Shown one piece after another: positions 38,603 through 48,574 of a stretch of 64,000 nt of DNA. The first letter of the stretch is position 1. Each line of letters begins with the position of its first letter. The DNA comes from Polaribacter sp. (GTDB lineage Bacteria; Bacteroidota; Bacteroidia; Flavobacteriales; Flavobacteriaceae): positions 62,001 to 126,000 of the forward strand of contig JAQXEU010000028.1 of the NCBI GenBank assembly GCA_029250685.1, read 5' to 3'. The position numbers and the translations under genes are program-made. The notes below the pieces were generated by a model that made no database searches, was not told the origin of the DNA, and worked only from the letters and a program-made list of their open reading frames with translations.

Positions 38603-41341
38603 ATGCAAACTTTTATATCAGAAACTTTAAATACAATTTTAACGAAACAAAAATCGTTTGAAAACACGGTTTTTGTTTTGCCTTCTCAAAGAGCTGGAGT
38701 TTTTGTAAAACAAGCATTAAAAGAAACTATTGAAGTAGGTTTTTTACCTAGAATATTAAATATTGAACAGTTTATAGAAGAGGTTTCTGGTTTGCATAAA
38801 ATTGATTCTATTCAAATATTATTTCATTTTTATGCGATTTATAAAAAGGTTGAAAATGAGCCCGAAGATTTTGAAAATTTTATCTCTTGGGCGTTTACCG
38901 TTGTACAAGATTTTAATGAAGTAGATCAGCATTTAGTCGATCCAAAGCAAATTTTTACTTATTTAAGAGACATTCAACGTTTAAAAAACTGGTCGGTAAA
39001 AAAGCCTTTTCAAGAAACTAAAATGGTTAAAAATCATTTTTCTTTTTTAGAAAAATTAGAAACTTATTACACAGAGTTCTATCAATTTTTGCTTGAAAAA
39101 AAAATTGGATATCAAGGGCTAATTTACAGAGAAGCTACAAAAAAAATTGAAACATATATTGACAAAAACAAAAGGCAGAATTTTGTATTCATGGGATTCA
39201 ATGCGCTAAACAAAGCAGAAGAATATTTATTTCAGCAATTATTATCTGCAGGAAACACTGATGTTTATTGGGATATTGATGTTAATTTTTTAAAGAACAA
39301 CCATCAGGCAGGAACATTTATCAGGAAGTATAAAGCTGAATGGAAATATTATCTCACGAATCCGATTTCGACAGTATCCTCTAATTTTGAACGAGACAAA
39401 AACATTGAAGTTATTGGTGCTTCAAAAAACAGTACACAAATAAAATATGTTGGAGAACTTTTAAATAAACTTCCAAATTATAACAAAACTGCGTATGTTT
39501 TAGCTGATGAAAGTTTGTTACCAATAACATTAAATTCTTTACCAAAAAAAGTTGAAGCGGTAAATATAACAATGGGTTATCCGTTAAAAGATATTCCAAC
39601 TACTTCTCTATTTATATCTATTTTTCAACTGTTTTTAACACAGGTGAAATTGAATAAATCACAAACTGAACAATTTTATTATAAAGATGTTTTGCAGTTT
39701 TTTAAACATGCAGCTATTTTACCTTTATTAATTGTTGACGGAAATAATATTTTAGATACAATTGCTATAAAAATAAGTGAAGACAATGATGCATTTATCA
39801 GTAAAAATCAAATTGAATCATTTTTAAAACCATTAGATAAATCAGTTAAAGAAACCATTGTTGCTCTCTTTTTTCCTATTGAAAAAATGCAAGGTTTTAT
39901 TCAACGAATATTAAACTTAATTGATGTTTTAAAAGAGAAAGCAAACCCGCTAGAAAAAGAATATTTATTTAGATATTTTACCGTTTTTTCTCAATTAAAA
40001 ACATTTCAAAGCGAATACAATTTCTTAAAAACTTTTAAAACAATTCATCAGTTATTCAATCAATTATTGAATACAGAATCGATTTCATTTCAAGGAGAAC
40101 CCTTGCAAGGCTTGCAATTAATGGGAATGTTAGAAACTCGAGTTTTAGATTTCGAAAATGTAATTATTACTTCTGTAAACGAAAATATTTTACCAAAAAA
40201 TAGCAAGCAGAATACGTTTATTCCGTTTGATGTAAAATTAGATTTCGGCTTGCCAACATACAGAGAAAAAGATGCTATTTTCTCGTATCATTTCTTTAGG
40301 TTATTACAACGAGCAAAAAACATTTACTTATTATATAATTCTGAAAGTGACACTTTTGGAGGTGGAGAAAAAAGCAGATTTATTGCACAATTATTACATT
40401 TAAAAAAAGAAATAAAAGAACTGCAAATAAGTCCGAAAGTGACCACAGAAAAAACAGAAGTTAAAGTAATTGAAAAAACAGACACCATAGCTTCTATCTT
40501 GAAAGAAGTTGCCAAAAAAGGATTCTCTCCATCTGCTTTAACCAATTATTTATACAATCCATATCAGTTTTACACGCAAAAAATTTTAAAGCTTTCAGAA
40601 TATAAAGAAGTAGAAGAAACTGTTGCTTCCAATACAATGGGAACAATTATTCATGATACTTTAGATGCATTATATCAACCTTATATTGGTCAATTTTTAA
40701 GCTTGGATAATCTAAAAGAAATGTTCGCTAAAGTTGACGAATTAGTTTCCTTTTACTTTAAAGAGCACTTTCATAATTCTGATGTATTCACAGGGAAAAA
40801 TAGGTTAATTTTTGAAGTTTCAAAAGATTATGTAAATCGCTTTTTAGAAAATGAAAAAACACTTGTATCTGAAAATAATCAATTAAAAATTATTGCAACA
40901 GAAGAAAATTTAGAAACAACAATTGAAATTGAAAGTTTTGATTTTCCAATTAAAATTCGCGGACAAGTTGATAGAATTGACGAGTTAAATGGCGTTACAA
41001 GAATTATAGATTACAAAACTGGTAAAGTTGAAGCTTCAAATTTAAAAGTAAACGATATTTCTAATATCGCTGATGAAAAATATAGCAAAGCAATTCAAGT
41101 GTTACTCTACGGATTTATGTATTCTAAAAGCAACAATATTCATCAACCTATTGAAAGCGGAATTATTTCTTTTAAAAATTTAAAAAGCGGATTGATAAAA
41201 GTAGATTTCGGCAAAAAAGATTACGAAATTACAGAAGATAGAATCACTGAATTCATCAACTCAATAAAAGAATTGATCAAAGAAATTTTTGCCCTTTCCA
41301 TTCCGTTTACAGAAAAAATTCACGAGAAACGTAAAATATAA
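38603..41341 (+). CDS. PD-(D/E)XK nuclease, AddB-like
   Basis: The 912-residue protein starts at ATG 38603 (MQTFISETLNTIL). The N-terminal two thirds resemble the degenerate helicase fold of AddB (VFVLPSQRAGVFVKQALKE; FMGFNALNKAEEYLF; NVIITSVNENILPKNSKQN). The C-terminal RecB-type nuclease domain is clear: RGQVDRIDELNGVTRIIDYKTGKV, with the Asp and DYK catalytic residues. AddB works with an AddA helicase-nuclease in double-strand break repair; no addA is adjacent. It lacks an obvious Walker A, and I do not see the CxxxC iron-sulfur pattern of Bacillus AddB. Confidence 0.85.
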   Translation: MQTFISETLNTILTKQKSFENTVFVLPSQRAGVFVKQALKETIEVGFLPRILNIEQFIEEVSGLHKIDSIQILFHFYAIYKKVENEPEDFENFISWAFTVVQDFNEVDQHLVDPKQIFTYLRDIQRLKNWSVKKPFQETKMVKNHFSFLEKLETYYTEFYQFLLEKKIGYQGLIYREATKKIETYIDKNKRQNFVFMGFNALNKAEEYLFQQLLSAGNTDVYWDIDVNFLKNNHQAGTFIRKYKAEWKYYLTNPISTVSSNFERDKNIEVIGASKNSTQIKYVGELLNKLPNYNKTAYVLADESLLPITLNSLPKKVEAVNITMGYPLKDIPTTSLFISIFQLFLTQVKLNKSQTEQFYYKDVLQFFKHAAILPLLIVDGNNILDTIAIKISEDNDAFISKNQIESFLKPLDKSVKETIVALFFPIEKMQGFIQRILNLIDVLKEKANPLEKEYLFRYFTVFSQLKTFQSEYNFLKTFKTIHQLFNQLLNTESISFQGEPLQGLQLMGMLETRVLDFENVIITSVNENILPKNSKQNTFIPFDVKLDFGLPTYREKDAIFSYHFFRLLQRAKNIYLLYNSESDTFGGGEKSRFIAQLLHLKKEIKELQISPKVTTEKTEVKVIEKTDTIASILKEVAKKGFSPSALTNYLYNPYQFYTQKILKLSEYKEVEETVASNTMGTIIHDTLDALYQPYIGQFLSLDNLKEMFAKVDELVSFYFKEHFHNSDVFTGKNRLIFEVSKDYVNRFLENEKTLVSENNQLKIIATEENLETTIEIESFDFPIKIRGQVDRIDELNGVTRIIDYKTGKVEASNLKVNDISNIADEKYSKAIQVLLYGFMYSKSNNIHQPIESGIISFKNLKSGLIKVDFGKKDYEITEDRITEFINSIKELIKEIFALSIPFTEKIHEKRKI

Positions 41342-42136
41342 TTATTGTTTCCCTCCTAAAACCAATAACGGAATGTTACAGTGGAATTCTTTCTTTAGAA
41401 TTGTATTCTTTTCCCAAAGCTTTTTAAAGAAACCTCTTTTACGTCTAAAAACACATAACATATCTGGGTTATGAGATTGAAAATGTTCTAATACTCCTTG
41501 AAAAGTAGTTGCATTTTCTGTAATTGTTAAAGACGACTTTAAACTTTCTAAAGCTGAATTTAAAACTAAATCTGCATCTGTATGATTTGGTGTTTTTACC
41601 AGTAATAAATTAATAACAGGATTAAATTTATCTTGAATAAATTGTAATGGAGCAATTGCATTTTCTTTGTTTACAATACCAGTTTTAAAAGCCGTTAAAA
41701 CAGAGTTAAATGGTTTAAAAACATACGATTCTGGGACAATTAAAACAGGTATATTAGATTGTTTTACAACACTACCAGAAGTGCTTCCTAAGAAAACTTC
41801 TTCTTTAATTGAATTACTTCTTGGTCCCATCACAATTAAATCTAAACCAATTTCTTTGTCAACGGCAGCAATAGAATCTACAACGTTTCCTTTTGCAGAA
41901 ATCAACTGAACATTCTTTCCTCTTCTGTTTACTGCATTAATCATAGAGCGTAAATACAAGTTAGATTCGCGTTCAACAATCGAAGTTACGTCAATAATTG
42001 TTCCTGCTTTAGATTGCACATTATATGCTCTTAATGCAAATACATTTGCATCAATTTCATTCGCAAAATCAATTGCATATTGTAAAGTGTTTATCGAGTT
42101 TTCTGAAGATCCGATTGGAACAAGTATGTTTTTCAT
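41342..42136 (-). CDS. Universal stress protein, two UspA domains
   Basis: The 264-residue protein has two tandem UspA-like halves. The first (residues 1-145) is complete: ILVPIGSSENSINTLQYAID, then the nucleotide-loop GPRSNSIKEEVFLGSTSGSVVKQSNIPVLIVP, close to the ATP-binding G2xG9xGS/T pattern. The second (about 146-264) is shorter and degenerate, ending NIPLLVLGGKQ. It abuts the convergent nuclease gene with no gap (stop codons 41339-41341 and 41342-41344). Confidence 0.9.
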   Translation of the reverse strand: MKNILVPIGSSENSINTLQYAIDFANEIDANVFALRAYNVQSKAGTIIDVTSIVERESNLYLRSMINAVNRRGKNVQLISAKGNVVDSIAAVDKEIGLDLIVMGPRSNSIKEEVFLGSTSGSVVKQSNIPVLIVPESYVFKPFNSVLTAFKTGIVNKENAIAPLQFIQDKFNPVINLLLVKTPNHTDADLVLNSALESLKSSLTITENATTFQGVLEHFQSHNPDMLCVFRRKRGFFKKLWEKNTILKKEFHCNIPLLVLGGKQ

Positions 42137-42237
42137 GTGATGTTTTTTTGATTATAGAAAATTACACAAAATAAATGAACTGCAAAAATACACTTTTTAA
42201 ATCTATCAAATATTCAATTTTAAAAACATAATAATGG

Positions 42238-42245
42238 TATTTTTG
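42238..42245 (+). promoter_or_regulatory. TAnnTTTG promoter -7 box (TATTTTTG)
   Basis: A perfect match with only four bases (GTTG) between its G and the MATE gene ATG at 42250, predicting a leaderless mRNA. Confidence 0.5.
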
Positions 42246-42249
42246 GTTG

Positions 42250-43587
42250 ATGTTAAAAACCGATATCAGTCGTAAAAAAATAAACAAACTGGCATTTCCT
42301 GCATTAGTTGCTGGAATCGCTGAACCGTTGCTTTCTATTACAGACACTGCAATTATTGGAAATATAGAAAACAATGCTGTAGAATCTTTAGCTGCAGTTG
42401 GAATTGTAGGCGCGTTTATTTCTATGTTAGTTTGGGTTTTTGGACAAATTAGAAGTGCAATTTCTGCTATTATTTCTCAATATATTGGCGCTGATAAATT
42501 GGAAGAAATTAAATCTTTACCATCACAAGCAATTACTATTGTTGTGCTTGTTAGTTTTTTAGTAATCGCAATTTCGTATCCATTTTCTGAAGCTATTTTT
42601 AAATTTTATAATGCTACAGGAATTATTTTAGATTTTTCAGTTGATTATTTTAATATCCGAATTCTTGGCTTTCCATTTACACTTTTTACTTTCGCAATTT
42701 TTGGTGTTTTTAGAGGTTTACAAAACACGTATTATCCAATGTTAATTGCAATTACTGGCGCCGTTTTAAACATCATTTTAGATTATTTGTTTGTGTATGG
42801 TTTTGGTGATTTAATTCCGGCTATGTACATAAAAGGTGCCGCTTATGCTAGTGTAATTGCGCAAATTATAATGGCCATTTTAGCTGCTGTTTTATTATTA
42901 AAAAAAACAAGTATTCCATTAAAAATTGTGCTACCAATACACCCAGAAATAAAACGCTTATTAGGGATGATTTTGAACTTATTCGTAAGAACATTGGCTT
43001 TAAATTTAGCATTATATTTCGGAACAGCGTACGCAACTTCTTACGGAAAAGAATACATTGCTGCTTATACAATCGGATTAAACTTATGGTTGTTAGGTGC
43101 TTTTATGATTGATGGATATTCTAGCGTTGGCAATATTTTATCAGGAAAATTATTAGGCCAAAAAGACTTCAAAACACTCATCGATTTGAATAAAAAACTA
43201 TTAAAATATGCTTTTGTTTTAGGGTGTTTTTTTATTCTTTTAGGGAGTGTTTTTTACAAACCAATCGGAACGATTTTTACCAAAGAGGCAGCCGTTTTAG
43301 ACCAGTTTTATTTAGTGTTCTGGGTTGTTTTAGCGATGCAGCCTTTATGCGCAATGACGTTTATTTTTGACGGCACCTTTAAAGGCTTAGGGAAAATGAA
43401 ATACCTAAGAAATGTACTGATATTCGCAACGCTAATTGGTTTTGTTCCGACATTATTTTTATTCGATTATTTAGACTTTAAATTGTACGCTATTTGGATT
43501 GCGTTTACCGTTTGGATGTTCTTTAGAGGCATTTTTTTATTTTTTAAATTCAAAAGAAAATTTTCTCCACTAGCACAAAAGCAGTAA
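42250..43587 (+). CDS. MATE family efflux transporter (DinF-like)
   Basis: The 445-residue inner-membrane protein has about 12 membrane helices and the MATE/DinF opening ISRKKINKLAFPALVAGIAE followed by PLLSITDTAIIGN. Family members export drugs or metabolites in exchange for Na+ or H+. The ATG at 42250 is preferred to a TTG one codon upstream. It has a perfect promoter box 4 bases upstream and its stop codon lies inside the promoter box of the next gene (43585). Confidence 0.92.
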   Translation: MLKTDISRKKINKLAFPALVAGIAEPLLSITDTAIIGNIENNAVESLAAVGIVGAFISMLVWVFGQIRSAISAIISQYIGADKLEEIKSLPSQAITIVVLVSFLVIAISYPFSEAIFKFYNATGIILDFSVDYFNIRILGFPFTLFTFAIFGVFRGLQNTYYPMLIAITGAVLNIILDYLFVYGFGDLIPAMYIKGAAYASVIAQIIMAILAAVLLLKKTSIPLKIVLPIHPEIKRLLGMILNLFVRTLALNLALYFGTAYATSYGKEYIAAYTIGLNLWLLGAFMIDGYSSVGNILSGKLLGQKDFKTLIDLNKKLLKYAFVLGCFFILLGSVFYKPIGTIFTKEAAVLDQFYLVFWVVLAMQPLCAMTFIFDGTFKGLGKMKYLRNVLIFATLIGFVPTLFLFDYLDFKLYAIWIAFTVWMFFRGIFLFFKFKRKFSPLAQKQ

Positions 43588-43592
43588 ATTTG
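43585..43592 (+). promoter_or_regulatory. TAnnTTTG promoter -7 box (TAAATTTG)
   Basis: A perfect match that includes the MATE gene's TAA stop codon, 20 bases before the enoyl-CoA hydratase ATG. Confidence 0.5.
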
Positions 43593-43612
43593 AATACAAA
43601 TCAAAAATCAGC

Positions 43613-44380
43613 ATGACAACTAACCGAGCAGAAGGAAGTTTATTTACCAAGATTGAAAAGAGCATTGCAACGATAGAGTTTGGTCATCCAGCAAGCAACT
43701 CTTTCCCAAGTGTTTTATTGGATCGATTGACAAAAGAATTGCAACGTATTTCTACGATTGATGCTGTTAATGTAATCATTTTAAAATCTGAAGGCGAAAA
43801 GGCATTTTGTGCTGGCGCTTCTTTTGATGAATTGGTTGCGATTGATAATTTAGAAGATGGAAAAAAATTCTTTTCAGGTTTTGCAAATGTTATCAATGCC
43901 ATGCGAACGTGTTCTAAATTGATTATTGGTTCTGTTCAAGGAAAAGTTGTTGGCGGTGGTGTTGGCCTAGCATCAGCTTGTGATTATGTATTAGCAACCG
44001 AAGCAGCTTCTATAAAATTATCAGAATTAACAATTGGAATTGGACCTTTTGTAATTGCTCCGGCTGTAGAGCGTAAAATTGGTTTGGCTGGACTTTCTGA
44101 ATTAACATTAGCAGCAACCGAATGGAAAACTGCGTATTGGGCAAAAGAAAAAGGGTTGTTTGCTAAGGTTTTTGCAACGCAAGATGAGTTGCTAAAAGAA
44201 ACGCAAAACTTAGCAGAAAAGTTAGCATCATACAATTCTGAAGCAACTGCAAACATGAAAAAAAATTTTTGGCAAGGAACAGAAAATTGGAATTCTTTAT
44301 TAATTGAAAGAGCAGAAATTACGGGAAAACTAGTTTTATCTGAATTCACCAAAAATGCATTATCAAAATTTAAAAAATAG
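43613..44380 (+). CDS. Enoyl-CoA hydratase/isomerase family protein
   Basis: The 255-residue crotonase-fold protein has the oxyanion-hole segments AFCAGASFDELVAI (about residues 64-77) and QGKVVGGGVGLASACDYVLA (about residues 104-123), followed by KLSELTIGIGPF. One Glu of the usual hydratase pair is seen in SELTIGI. Methylglutaconyl- or enoyl-CoA hydratase activity is likely; the exact acyl chain is unknown. It is followed by a 31-codon ORF and the QueD-like gene on the same strand. Confidence 0.9.
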   Translation: MTTNRAEGSLFTKIEKSIATIEFGHPASNSFPSVLLDRLTKELQRISTIDAVNVIILKSEGEKAFCAGASFDELVAIDNLEDGKKFFSGFANVINAMRTCSKLIIGSVQGKVVGGGVGLASACDYVLATEAASIKLSELTIGIGPFVIAPAVERKIGLAGLSELTLAATEWKTAYWAKEKGLFAKVFATQDELLKETQNLAEKLASYNSEATANMKKNFWQGTENWNSLLIERAEITGKLVLSEFTKNALSKFKK

Positions 44381-44385
44381 AAAAT

Positions 44386-44481
44386 ATGGGAGCAGATTAT
44401 TTATTTTTAGGATTGGCTGTATTATTAGCAATCATGTACTTTTACAACAAGTTCAATGCAAATAGAAATAAAAGAAAATAG
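44386..44481 (+). CDS. 31-residue single-pass membrane protein
   Basis: ATG 44386 to TAG 44479-44481 encodes a small protein starting MGADYLFLGLAVLLAIMYFY and ending NKFNANRNKRK. It has a clean membrane helix (about residues 5-22) followed by a strongly basic tail (NRNKRK), as in genuine small membrane proteins with the tail in the cytoplasm. It lies 5 bases after the enoyl-CoA hydratase stop and 1 base before the QueD-like ATG, so it fits exactly between the two genes. I infer a real gene of unknown function, too short for most gene finders. Confidence 0.7.
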   Translation: MGADYLFLGLAVLLAIMYFYNKFNANRNKRK

Positions 44482-44482
44482 C

Positions 44483-44932
44483 ATGAGTACAATAAGAATT
44501 ACAAAGCAATTTAATTTTGAAACGGGTCATGCATTATACGGTTATGACGGAAAATGTAAAAATGTTCACGGGCATTCTTACAAACTTTCTGTTACCGTAA
44601 TCGGGCAACCAATTACAGATAGTTCTCAAGTTAAATACGGAATGGTTATTGATTTTTCTGATCTAAAAAAGATTGTGAAAGAAGAAGTTGTCGATGTATT
44701 TGATCATGCAACTGTGTTTAATCAAAATACGCCACACATCGAATTGGCAAAAGAGTTAAAACAACGTGACCATCATGTTATTTTGGTCGATTATCAACCT
44801 ACAAGTGAAATGATGGTGATTGATTTTGCAGATAAAATCAGAAAAAGATTACCCGAAAATATTGCGTTATTTTCATTGCGATTACAAGAAACTGAAACCA
44901 GTTTTGCAGAGTGGTTTGCTAGTGATAATTAG
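44483..44932 (+). CDS. queD: 6-carboxytetrahydropterin synthase / 6-pyruvoyl-tetrahydropterin synthase homolog
   Basis: The 149-residue protein makes a pterin intermediate for queuosine. The zinc-site histidines are in FETGHALYGYDGKCKNVHGHSYKL, where Cys (GKCKNVHGH) is the catalytic residue; DHATVFNQNTP and QETETSFAEW carry the rest. The ATG at 44483 is preferred: the longer frame from 44456 overlaps the 31-residue ORF and has no family support. The queuosine role is inferred from the family. Confidence 0.92.
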   Translation: MSTIRITKQFNFETGHALYGYDGKCKNVHGHSYKLSVTVIGQPITDSSQVKYGMVIDFSDLKKIVKEEVVDVFDHATVFNQNTPHIELAKELKQRDHHVILVDYQPTSEMMVIDFADKIRKRLPENIALFSLRLQETETSFAEWFASDN

Positions 44933-44958
44933 TTCCTAACTCCCGCTTGAACTGGAAA

Positions 44959-45525
44959 TTACTTACCATTAAAAGTGTTCATCGTATTTGACATTCCTGC
45001 AGTTCCAAAAGAAGTAATTAAATTACATGAAACTGGAATACGCTCTATTAGCAAACTTGTTTCTTCTTTAGACCATTTATTTAACACAAAATCTACTTGT
45101 CGTCCTTTCGAATAATCAGCACCAACACCAAATCTAAATCTTGGATAATTTGTTGTGTTTAATTTCTCTTGAATATCTTTCAATCCGTTATGTCCACCAG
45201 CAGAACCTTTTCCTTTTAGGCGAATTGTTCCAAAATCGATATTTAAATCGTCTGTAATTATCAACGTATTTTCAATCGAAATTTTTTCTTTGTCCATCCA
45301 ATATTTAACTGCTTTTCCACTTAAGTTCATAAACGTACTTGGTTTAAGTAATACAAAAGTTCTTCCTTTAAATCGGAAAGTAGCTACATCACCTAATTTA
45401 TCAGTTTCAAAAGTGGCATCATAATCTTTAGCTAAAGCATCTAGTATTTTAAAACCAATATTATGACGCGTATCCTCGTATTTCTCTCCAATATTTCCTA
45501 AGCCAACAATTAAAAATTTCTTCAT
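44959..45525 (-). CDS. pth: Peptidyl-tRNA hydrolase
   Basis: Frees tRNA from prematurely dropped peptidyl-tRNA. The 188-residue protein has the catalytic His in YEDTRHNIGFKILDAL, the FMNLSGKAVKYWM segment with its key Asn, and TDDLNIDFGTIRLKGKGSAGG. ATG 45525 is preferred over a TTG at 45534 that lies inside the promoter box. Only six bases separate the box from the ATG, so the mRNA is probably leaderless. Confidence 0.95.
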   Translation of the reverse strand: MKKFLIVGLGNIGEKYEDTRHNIGFKILDALAKDYDATFETDKLGDVATFRFKGRTFVLLKPSTFMNLSGKAVKYWMDKEKISIENTLIITDDLNIDFGTIRLKGKGSAGGHNGLKDIQEKLNTTNYPRFRFGVGADYSKGRQVDFVLNKWSKEETSLLIERIPVSCNLITSFGTAGMSNTMNTFNGK

Positions 45526-45531
45526 ATGGTA

Positions 45532-45539
45532 CAAAAATA
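45532..45539 (-). promoter_or_regulatory. TAnnTTTG promoter -7 box for pth (TATTTTTG)
   Basis: A perfect match on the minus strand, 6 bases before the pth ATG and touching the rplY terminator at 45541. Confidence 0.55.
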
Positions 45540-45540
45540 A

Positions 45541-45572
45541 AAAAAGCGTTACAATAAAGTAACGCTTTTTTT
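45541..45572 (-). terminator. Intrinsic terminator after rplY
   Basis: AAAAAGCGTTAC pairs with GTAACGCTTTTT around AATAAA, with a T run in the direction of rplY transcription. The pth promoter box starts one base beyond it. Confidence 0.85.
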
Positions 45573-45593
45573 AATTATAAGAATAATTTATGT

Positions 45594-46214
45594 TTATTCT
45601 GCTGCTGGAGCTTCTGCTGCTGCTTCAGTTCCTTCTTCAGTTTCATCTTCAGTTTCTAAATCTTCTGTTGCATTACGAGACATTCTTACTTGTACTACAA
45701 CCGTATTATCTGGGTGTAAGAATGTACAGTTTTTACTATCGATGTCAGTTATAAATAATTTACTTCCGATTTTCAATTTAGAAATATCTGCATTGAAAAA
45801 ATCTGGCAAGTTGCCCGGTAAAGCTTTTACTCTTAATTTACGCTTTGGAAAACGTAAAGAACCTCCATTTAAAACTCCTGGAGCACTACCTACCAAGTGT
45901 ACTGGAATGTTCATTGTAACTTCTTTATCATCAAATAACTGATAAAAATCAATGTGTATGATTCTGTCTGTTACTGGGTGAAATTGAATGTCTTGTAAAA
46001 TAGCTGCTACTTTTTGACCATCTAACTCAATCGTTGCAGTATATACATTTGGAGTATAAACAAGTTTTTTAAATGCCAATTCTGGCGCTGAAAAATGCAT
46101 TGGCTTGTCTCCTCCGTATATAACGCAAGGAACCTGACCAGCATTACGTAAGGCTTTAGTTGCTACTTTACCTACGCTTTCTCTTTGAGATCCTTTGATT
46201 GTAATTGATTTCAT
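45594..46214 (-). CDS. rplY: 50S ribosomal protein L25/general stress protein Ctc
   Basis: Binds 5S rRNA in the large ribosomal subunit. The 206-residue form is the long CTC/TL5 type: the N-terminal L25 domain ([29 protein letters not shown]) and the C-terminal beta domain ([34 protein letters not shown]), ending in an acidic Glu/Ala tail. It follows prs by 26 bases, a common pairing, and is closed by the terminator at 45541. Confidence 0.95.
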
Positions 46215-46240
46215 TACTTTTATTTAATTATTGTTAATAT

Positions 46241-47182
46241 TTACATTAAAAATTGTCCGCTAATGCTAGTGTTCTCTTGAACTTTCTGCATTATGTCTGC
46301 GAATAAAGGGGCGCAAGATACAACTTTTATCTTAGAACTTTCTCTTTTTAAAGGAATTGTATCTGACACGATTAACTCAATTAAATCAGACTCTTCTATG
46401 CGCTCTATTGCGGTTCCAGAAAGTATTGGATGTGTACAAATTGCACGCACACTTAACGCGCCTCTTTCCATCATTATATTTGCTGCTTTTGCCAATGTTC
46501 CTCCAGTGTCAATCATATCATCAACCAGAATAACATTTTTACCTTGAACGTCACCAATCAATTCCATGTGAGAAATTACATTGGCTTTTTTACGTTGTTT
46601 GTAACAAATAACTACATCAGAATCTAAATATTTAGAATAGGCATACGCTCTTTTAGAACCACCCATATCTGGGGATGCAATTGTTAAATTGTCTAACCCT
46701 AACGATTTTACGTAGGGTAAAAATATTGTTGAAGCAAACATATGGTCAACAGGTTTTTCGAAAAAACCTTGAATTTGATCAGCATGTAAATCCATTGTCA
46801 TAATTCTAGTTGCACCTGCAGCTTGCAATAAATTTGCAACTAATTTTGCGCCAATTGCAACTCTCGGTTTGTCTTTTCTATCTTGTCTTGCCCACCCAAA
46901 ATATGGTATAACTGCTGTTACGTGTCTTGCCGATGCTCTTTTTGCAGCATCAATCATCAATAACATTTGCATTAAATTATCAGAATTTGGAAATGTTGAA
47001 CCAATGATAAATATTCTTCTACCACGAATAGATTCCTCAAAAGCAGGTTGAAATTCACCATCACTAAAATGAGTTGTAGTTACTTTACCTAATTTTGCAC
47101 CATATTCTTTGGCAATTTTCTCTGCTAATTCTACACTTTGAGAACAAGCAAATATCTTTGGAGTTAACTGATTTGAAGACAT
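46241..47182 (-). CDS. prs: Ribose-phosphate pyrophosphokinase
   Basis: Makes PRPP from ribose 5-phosphate and ATP, used by upp and ComF-type enzymes among others. The 313-residue protein has the pyrophosphokinase signature DLHADQIQGFF (about residues 132-142), the ATP loop region KDKPRVAIGAKLVANLLQAAG, and the PRPP motif VILVDDMIDTGGTLAKAA near residue 219. Length is standard. The promoter box lies about 40 bases upstream. Confidence 0.97.
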   Translation of the reverse strand: MSSNQLTPKIFACSQSVELAEKIAKEYGAKLGKVTTTHFSDGEFQPAFEESIRGRRIFIIGSTFPNSDNLMQMLLMIDAAKRASARHVTAVIPYFGWARQDRKDKPRVAIGAKLVANLLQAAGATRIMTMDLHADQIQGFFEKPVDHMFASTIFLPYVKSLGLDNLTIASPDMGGSKRAYAYSKYLDSDVVICYKQRKKANVISHMELIGDVQGKNVILVDDMIDTGGTLAKAANIMMERGALSVRAICTHPILSGTAIERIEESDLIELIVSDTIPLKRESSKIKVVSCAPLFADIMQKVQENTSISGQFLM

Positions 47183-47221
47183 TTAGTTGTGTTTTGTTTT
47201 AAGTTAGTTTGTTGTTAGATG

Positions 47222-47229
47222 CAAAAGTA
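47222..47229 (-). promoter_or_regulatory. TAnnTTTG promoter -7 box for prs-rplY (TACTTTTG)
   Basis: A perfect match on the minus strand, 39 bases before the prs ATG. Confidence 0.5.
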
Positions 47230-47284
47230 AAAATATTTAATGAGTTGTGTGGTTTTTTATGCTTTAATACTAAAATTATTTTTT

Positions 47285-47292
47285 TAGATTTG
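47285..47292 (+). promoter_or_regulatory. TAnnTTTG promoter -7 box for tRNA-Leu (TAGATTTG)
   Basis: A perfect match, 17 bases before the first base of the tRNA. Confidence 0.55.
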
Positions 47293-47309
47293 CAGTCCGA
47301 TATTATTAT

Positions 47310-47391
47310 GCTCGAGTGGCGGAATTGGTAGACGCGCTGGATTCAAAATCCAGTTCTTTCGGGAGTGTGGGTTCGATTCCCACCTCGAGTA
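47310..47391 (+). tRNA. tRNA-Leu(CAA)
   Basis: An 82-base class II tRNA with a long variable arm. The acceptor arms GCTCGAG and CTCGAGT pair (the first pair is G-U), followed by discriminator A; CCA is not encoded. The anticodon stem-loop CTGGA-TTCAAAA-TCCAG gives anticodon CAA, reading UUG leucine codons. The T arm has GTTCGATTC. It stands alone with its own promoter box and terminator. Confidence 0.97.
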
Positions 47392-47397
47392 CAAAAT

Positions 47398-47430
47398 AAA
47401 ACCTCAACACTTTGTTGAGGTTTTGTTTTG
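47398..47430 (+). terminator. Intrinsic terminator after tRNA-Leu
   Basis: AAAACCTCAACA pairs with TGTTGAGGTTTT around CTT, followed by a T-rich stretch. Confidence 0.85.
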
Positions 47431-47518
47431 TTAGAAAGATATTTTGTAATTTCACAAGATTCATTACATTACTCTTTCAACTCTTTGATGTTAGATGTTT
47501 ACTTTAATAATTTCATTC

Positions 47519-48574
47519 ATGAAAACATATCAATCTTTTTATCTTTTTGCTGTTGTAATTATATTATTATCATGTGAATCTAATTCGAAAAAAAAATCTT
47601 CTTTACTAGCAAATGATGCTCCTAATGGAATGATTTGGGTGGCTCAAAAAACTTTTATGATGGGCGCAAGAAGTGATGATAAGATGGCAATGTCAAGAGA
47701 AAAACCTTCTCATTCTGTTACCGTTTCGGGATTCTATATAGATGAAACTGAAGTGACCAATGCTCAGTTTAGAAAATTTATTAATGAAACCAAGTATTTA
47801 ACAGTTGCAGAAAGACCAATTGATTGGAATGAAATGAAAAAACAGTTGCCAGCAGGAACCCAAAAACCTCATGATTCTTTATTAAAGCCAGGAAGTTTAA
47901 TATTTAATAAAAACCTAAAAGCGGTTGCTTCTATGGATAACTATTATCAATGGTGGACATGGAAAACGGGCGCTAATTGGAAGCAGCCGTATGGAGAAGG
48001 AACCAACATTGATAGAAAAGATAATTTCCCTGTTGTTCATGTTTCTTATGAAGATGCTTTAGCATATTGCAAATGGGCAAATAGAAGATTACCTACTGAA
48101 GCTGAATGGGAGTCTGCAGCATTAGGTACAAAAACGAGTTCAATTTTTACTTGGGGGAATGATGTCTCAAAATTAAATGAAATGGCCAATACTTGGCAAG
48201 GTGTTTTTCCTGTTAAAAATCAATCTATGGATGGTTTTGAATATATTTCTCCAATAAAATCTTTTCCAGCAAATAGCATAGGTATTTATGATATGACTGG
48301 AAATGTCTGGGAATTAACAAGCGATTGGTTTCATATAAATTACTACCAACAAATAGTAGGTAAAAAGCTAGTAAATCCAAAAGGGGCAACTGAATCTTAT
48401 AATCCGCAGAATCCTTATCAAAAAGAAAAAGTTATGAAAGGTGGCTCTTTTTTGTGTCACGAATCTTATTGTGCAAGTTTTAGGATATCAGCAAGAATGG
48501 CATCTGCAATGGATACAGGATCAGATCATCTTGGCTTTAGAACTGTTGCAACTCAAAAAATGTTAAAAAATTGA
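47519..48574 (+). CDS. Formylglycine-generating enzyme (SUMF1/FGE), lipoprotein
   Basis: The 351-residue protein has a lipoprotein signal (VIILLSCES, lipidated Cys at about residue 19) and one FGE-sulfatase domain: GMIWVAQKTFMMGARSDDKM, YIDETEVTNAQFRKFI, HVSYEDALAYCKWANRRLPT, NVWELTSDWFH. The catalytic copper-binding cysteine pair is present in GGSFLCHESYCASFR, so this is a true oxidase that converts the sulfatase Cys to formylglycine, unlike GldJ/GldK relatives, which lack it. The client sulfatase is encoded next, 73 bases on. ATG 47519 is preferred to 47495 because the signal starts there. Confidence 0.92.
   Translation: MKTYQSFYLFAVVIILLSCESNSKKKSSLLANDAPNGMIWVAQKTFMMGARSDDKMAMSREKPSHSVTVSGFYIDETEVTNAQFRKFINETKYLTVAERPIDWNEMKKQLPAGTQKPHDSLLKPGSLIFNKNLKAVASMDNYYQWWTWKTGANWKQPYGEGTNIDRKDNFPVVHVSYEDALAYCKWANRRLPTEAEWESAALGTKTSSIFTWGNDVSKLNEMANTWQGVFPVKNQSMDGFEYISPIKSFPANSIGIYDMTGNVWELTSDWFHINYYQQIVGKKLVNPKGATESYNPQNPYQKEKVMKGGSFLCHESYCASFRISARMASAMDTGSDHLGFRTVATQKMLKN

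Follow-up and report, generated by a model that had tools for sequence, protein, structure and literature searches.

Does the 31-codon reading frame lying between an enoyl-CoA hydratase/isomerase family gene and a queD-like gene, in the 64,000-nucleotide stretch of Polaribacter sp. DNA analysed here (the window), encode a protein, and what could such a small protein do? The initial annotation had described a 31-residue ORF separated by 5 bases from the hydratase gene and by 1 base from the QueD gene, and the coordinates confirm this arrangement (Table 1), with the first gap at 44381-44385 and the queD ATG at 44483. The peptide encoded on the + strand by 44386-44481 is MGADYLFLGLAVLLAIMYFYNKFNANRNKRK; together with its relatives it is called family A. 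A MATE-family transporter gene, whose start was set at an ATG 3 bases inside the TTG frame of the ORF list, heads the row, and the spacings between MATE, hydratase, family A and queD are 25, 5 and 1 bases, all on the + strand. Because the row is so tightly packed, it is plausibly a single transcript. The queD-like product scored 86.0 bits against TIGR03367 (QueD), slightly under the 89.25-bit cut-off.

Table 1 Features of family A and of the gene row around it (window positions).
Feature	Position	Strand	Description
MATE-family transporter gene	42250..43587	+	heads the row; MatE, TIGR00797
Enoyl-CoA hydratase/isomerase family gene	43613..44380	+	Pfam ECH_1; 5 bases 5' of family A
A-rich translation start region	44370..44385	+	overlaps the end of the hydratase gene
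smORF family A	44386..44481	+	ATG to TAG; 31 residues, one-helix membrane protein; from ORF list, relatives and selection
Membrane helix	44398..44451	+	codons 5-22; conserved face F7, L10, A/G11, L14, Y18, N21
Basic C-terminal tail	44449..44478	+	codons 22-31; relatives mostly K/R at columns 22, 24, 30, 31
queD-like gene, 6-pyruvoyl-tetrahydropterin synthase family	44483..44932	+	Pfam PTPS; 1 base 3' of family A

The family A start in the window has A at -3, -12 and -13 and G at -6, and among 113 unique family A genes of relatives, A was found at -3 in 80 and at -12 in 85. In Flavobacterium johnsoniae, A at -3, -12 and -13 is described as favouring initiation (PMC6847099). In an Rfam scan of 41300-47400, the only family to reach its gathering score was tRNA, with a gene that lies outside the row (47310-47391, RF00005, 61.4 bits). 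A promoter and terminator consensus scan of 42100-45600 gave nothing above shuffled sequence, and the Bacteroidota-type promoter pattern matched 4 times in the window against 9.9 expected, with none of the matches in the row.

Conservation of the frame and of a helix face

Of the 97 genomes of the genus, 72 matched the peptide in a translated search at E<=0.0185, and 70 did so at E<=4.8e-4; the family profile added G041 and G096, which brought family A to 74/97 genus genomes. At E<=1, the same search gave 84/97 genus genomes, the surplus consisting of weak matches within other frames; when the reversed peptide was used as a control on 40 genus genomes, 24/40 had a match at E<=1, with a best E of only 0.0127. 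The pN/pS ratio was 0.35 in the frame, and shifting the frame raised it to 0.96 in one case and 0.93 in the other (35 unique sequences). Across 18 disjoint pairs, the 187 differences were distributed over the codon positions as 37/42/108 (p=7e-12 for the third-position excess), and 74 silent codon changes were counted, against a null mean of 35.6 and a maximum of 51 over 2000 shuffles. The earlier suggestion that the frame is more than chance is borne out by its retention in these 74 genomes and by changes that are mostly silent in that frame only.

Short chance ORFs are common in this DNA, with 69 ORFs of at least 25 aa overlapping 41000-48500, which speaks for a chance open frame. This alternative has a vanishingly small probability: it is opposed by the genus-wide and family-wide relatives and by the pN/pS ratio, and it is ruled out by the kept frame, the excess of silent changes and the reversed-peptide control. 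As judged from these substitution patterns, the family A frame is a real gene with selection acting on the protein. We conclude from its conservation that the ORF at 44386-44481 is translated, its product being known from the gene alone.

To delimit the family, we used a 20-member profile, which found family A in at least 149 of 299 Flavobacteriaceae genomes at E<=3.7e-5; this count was used instead of the 193/299 obtained at E<=0.1, which contains chance matches because the E-values are per genome. Outside the Flavobacteriaceae, the best match of an order-wide search had an E of 0.0026 and lay inside an 812-residue frame, the good matches all being within the family. A class-wide search gave 3/247 with E<=0.001: two belong to the genus, and the third (2.2e-4) lies inside a 587-residue frame. 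Family A is, on present evidence, a gene of the Flavobacteriaceae. Two forms of the protein were observed, MGGDYLF... as in the window and MDILxFLxGNGLFL..., the latter with about six extra N-terminal residues. Among 103 unique relatives, a set that is unevenly sampled, includes near relatives and counts identical genes once, 100 are 23-37 aa long and the others are 44, 44 and 53 aa. A tandem pair of family A copies follows the hydratase gene at L182:2577-2839 and at L180:1610-1956. The copy in G147 (L214:600-860, - strand) carries a TAA in frame at codon 5, with the end of the contig upstream, and may be a broken copy, a gene with a later start or a sequence error.

The conserved residues were concentrated on one side of the predicted helix. 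Of the 103 unique proteins, all had F7 and all had A or G at position 11, while L10 was kept in 100, N21 in 99 and Y18 in 93; several positions between the conserved ones varied among I, V, L, A and G. The conserved residues are spaced 3-4 apart, corresponding to one side of a helix, and the helical periodicity of conservation was equalled by 106 of 20000 column shuffles, a test whose units are alignment columns, not lineages. The structure model was a single helix over residues 3-29 (mean pLDDT 82, pTM 0.39). The window protein itself has F7, L10, A/G11, N21 and the basic tail, the family having been defined from these same sequences. The single membrane helix with a basic tail, proposed from the window sequence, is therefore supported by both the comparative data and the predicted helix. 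By the positive-inside rule, a basic tail is expected on the cytoplasmic side of the membrane, and from this rule we infer that the Lys/Arg tail most likely faces the cytoplasm, with the short N-terminus on the outer side.

When the window protein was scanned against Pfam and NCBIfam, no model rose above its cut-off, and the same scans of 20 family A members gave weak matches only. Membership in a known Pfam or NCBIfam family was rejected, the window protein being under every cut-off. The closest were PF21844 (DUF6903), with 20.1 bits and an E of 0.00067 over residues 7-22 only (cut-off 24.2; 6/20 family A members match at E<=0.1), and NCBIfam NF045534 'EYxxD motif small membrane protein', with 15.1 bits and an E of 0.014 (cut-off 29); 11/20 members of alignment A1 matched the latter weakly (best E 0.002), and its EYxxD motif is absent from the window protein. 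No literature on family A or on a small protein linked to queD or MATE was found among the papers listed, judging by titles and abstract openings, and the literature on the related subject was general work on small membrane proteins. The one-helix membrane microprotein is a known kind, and family A itself appears to be undescribed in the sources searched; it may be contained, unnamed, in the global catalogue of small proteins (PMC11364881).

Neighbouring genes and candidate partners

We found MATE 5' of family A on the same strand in all 112 family genomes with both among the matches listed. These are 112 of the at least 149 family A genomes, the other 37 being without a MATE place among the matches listed. 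The distance was <=100 bp in 36, 101-400 bp in 54, 401-1200 bp in 19 and 1.4-2 kb in 3, and in the loci read, the interval was empty or held the hydratase gene or another small membrane protein (family B). The pairing persists in G194, whose queD is on another contig, and in L171-L176, where queD lies further off behind additional genes. A MATE match at 1e-60 was present in 145/149 listed family A genomes vs 103/150 other family genomes, an excess that reduced genomes may explain in part. These observations point tentatively to family A as an accessory or regulatory helix for a larger membrane protein, with the MATE pump as the leading candidate partner, a reading to which we give a probability of slightly less than two in five. 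MATE leads because it is the steadiest family-wide link and is kept where queD is not adjacent. Conserved gene order by itself cannot name a partner, and the chance that MATE is the partner, as inferred from position only, is between about a quarter and a third.

Family A was also present without MATE in four genomes of 99-100% completeness, namely G206, G229 and G321 of the family set (no match at 1e-60) and G034 of the genus (no match at 1e-40). In G206 and G321, family A follows a 2-hydroxyacid dehydrogenase gene with MgtE further upstream, and in G229 it stands alone beside a universal stress protein gene. A fifth case, G147, is the genome whose family A copy has the TAA at codon 5 and the contig edge upstream. 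Within the genus, MATE was absent from the strand and contig of family A in 35/71 genomes and far off in 2 more, mostly because it is placed elsewhere, as in G043, where it lies ~30 kb off on the other strand; at L188, GH3 and M23 peptidase genes are upstream of family A in MATE's stead. MATE without family A was found in 103/248 MATE-bearing family genomes, and seven genus genomes without a family A match have MATE 23-27 bp before queD. Four loci of those seven (L198, L200, L201 and L202), with queD directly after MATE and family A cleanly lost, represent natural deletions.

In view of the MATE-less genomes, it is about as likely as the accessory role that family A stands by itself, as a small membrane protein that alters the membrane state or acts in stress and has no partner dedicated to it in the row; its neighbours would then merely have inherited the gene order. 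Family A outlasts the loss or removal of MATE in the four genomes above, it is kept without a detected hydratase in 31 of the 36 loci L111-L146 and without an adjacent queD in G194 and others, and in part of the genus it stands behind GH3. The conserved helix face and the unbroken linkage to MATE among the 112 genomes suggest, on the other side, a specific contact.

The relation to queD was close in position and variable in distance. Of 110 family genomes with both genes among the matches listed, themselves part of the at least 149 family A genomes, 109 have family A 5' of queD at a distance of up to 5 kb and on the same strand; in the remaining one, queD is on a different contig. The gap was -1 to 60 bp in 51 (including exactly -1 bp in 9, counted as adjacent), 61-300 bp in 12, 301-1500 bp in 42 and greater in 4. 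In the genus, it was -5 to 60 bp in 51/71 and 61-300 bp in 19/71, so that 70/71 have family A no more than 300 bp upstream of queD and in the same orientation. Among 31 loci with a gene inside the gap, a set with uneven sampling and near relatives included, that gene had the opposite orientation in 23 and the same orientation in 8, and cotranscription of family A and queD is therefore not general. At L112 the intervening gene (1582-2223, - strand) is a 2OG-Fe(II) oxygenase gene according to Pfam, L112 alone having been scanned, and similar opposite-strand genes lie between family A and queD at L114, L119 and L176.

The hydratase and queD genes, the neighbours named in the initial annotation, adjoin family A in the window and in the six best-matching relatives (L002-L007), where the frame is kept at 74-84% identity; this check, proposed with the initial annotation as a possible refutation, did not refute it. 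The two genes are not the most telling context. Across the family the constant neighbour is MATE; with flanks of 1.5 kb, the hydratase showed up in just 5 of the 36 loci L111-L146, and queD is often separated from family A by another gene.

These distances bear on two further explanations. The frame could be a leader ORF whose translation controls that of queD through termination-reinitiation, with little importance for the peptide, and the single base between its stop and the queD start in the window, as well as the gaps of up to 60 bp in 51 genus and 51 family genomes, would suit such a role. A leader would leave its amino acids free to vary, whereas this peptide is under purifying selection with a conserved helix face; the wider gaps (61-300 bp in the 19 genus genomes and 301-1500 bp in the 42 family genomes) and the 23 opposite-strand genes also argue against it. 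A leader role alone fails because the selection on amino acids and the loci with an intervening gene stay unexplained, and we regard it as very doubtful. Equally doubtful is an accessory of QueD-related or acyl-CoA (hydratase) function, with family A as the membrane anchor of a soluble enzyme. The position of family A upstream of queD in 109/110 family genomes, and within 300 bp in 70/71 genus genomes, speaks for this role; yet queD matches occur in 277/299 family genomes and therefore in many without family A, other genes often intervene, and the hydratase was seen in those 5 loci of 36.

Family B, the second small protein of this region, is a one-helix protein of ~57 aa with the motif APDxxYxIGxxIGxxLPF and a basic tail (for example, L112:1326-1499). 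A search at E<=1e-4 found it in 88/299 family genomes, where it often separates MATE from family A; the window genome gave no match at 1e-4. Scanned against Pfam and NCBIfam, its members matched weakly at best. In a comparison that took 63 of the 88 family B places and left out 25 genomes without a listed family A, family B was directly 5' of family A in 57/60 genomes with both among the matches listed, and 28/88 family B genomes were without family A among the matches listed. Like family A, family B is a small membrane protein with one helix and a basic tail; its own conserved N-terminal part sets it apart. In the Tenacibaculum-type loci L035, L041, L045, L058 and L100, there is another small protein with one helix just 5' of family A, its sequence ending with KQIRTFGE or KQIRNFGE. 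It may be a remote variant of family B; two such proteins are part of the family B alignment, so that a match to that alignment is not independent. A narrower and rather unlikely possibility is that a MATE-family exporter of the Flavobacteriaceae has family A as its dedicated small subunit, alone or paired with family B.

Proposed mode of action and comparison with known small membrane proteins

As an accessory or regulatory helix, family A would be a small inner-membrane protein with one helix, its N-terminus outside and its Lys/Arg tail cytoplasmic. The face F7-L10-A/G11-L14-Y18-N21, itself defined statistically, would presumably pack against another membrane helix, and the family A helix might stabilise or tune a larger membrane protein in the way AcrZ acts on AcrB. 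The candidate partner would be the MATE transporter heading the gene row.

With family A, the testable bacterial membrane microproteins gain a family that is conserved in position and has a clear conserved helix face, and one specific transporter, MATE, comes forward as the partner to test. If MATE binding is true, family A would be an accessory subunit, an AcrZ-like helix, for the MATE transporter class. MATE transporters are otherwise generally regarded as working alone, and the class is not known to have an accessory subunit. Even if family A does not bind MATE, about half of the sampled Flavobacteriaceae genomes retain this gene, for which neither Pfam nor NCBIfam has a model that passes its cut-off.

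Both leading readings have a counterpart in Escherichia coli. For the self-standing role, it is YohP, a 27-residue membrane protein described as affecting the membrane state or stress (PMC12719787). YohP belongs to the same size class as family A and is likewise a small membrane protein without a known catalytic part; it differs in being a stress-linked E. coli protein, and the likeness to family A is one of description. For the preferred reading as an accessory helix, the counterpart is AcrZ, a 49 aa protein that binds AcrB and is described as a small membrane protein tuning a transporter (PMC7267776). The likeness is in the working mode, not a homology family, and the binding of family A to a transporter is putative. 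Family A would share with AcrZ a possible link to a drug-efflux-type transporter, AcrZ acting on an RND pump; for family A, MATE is upstream in 112/112, yet four near-complete genomes are without MATE and in 37/71 genus genomes it is not nearby upstream. Both are tiny single-helix inner-membrane proteins, and with 31 aa and a predicted helix at residues 3-29, the window protein falls within the AcrZ-like size range of one helix and under ~50 residues.
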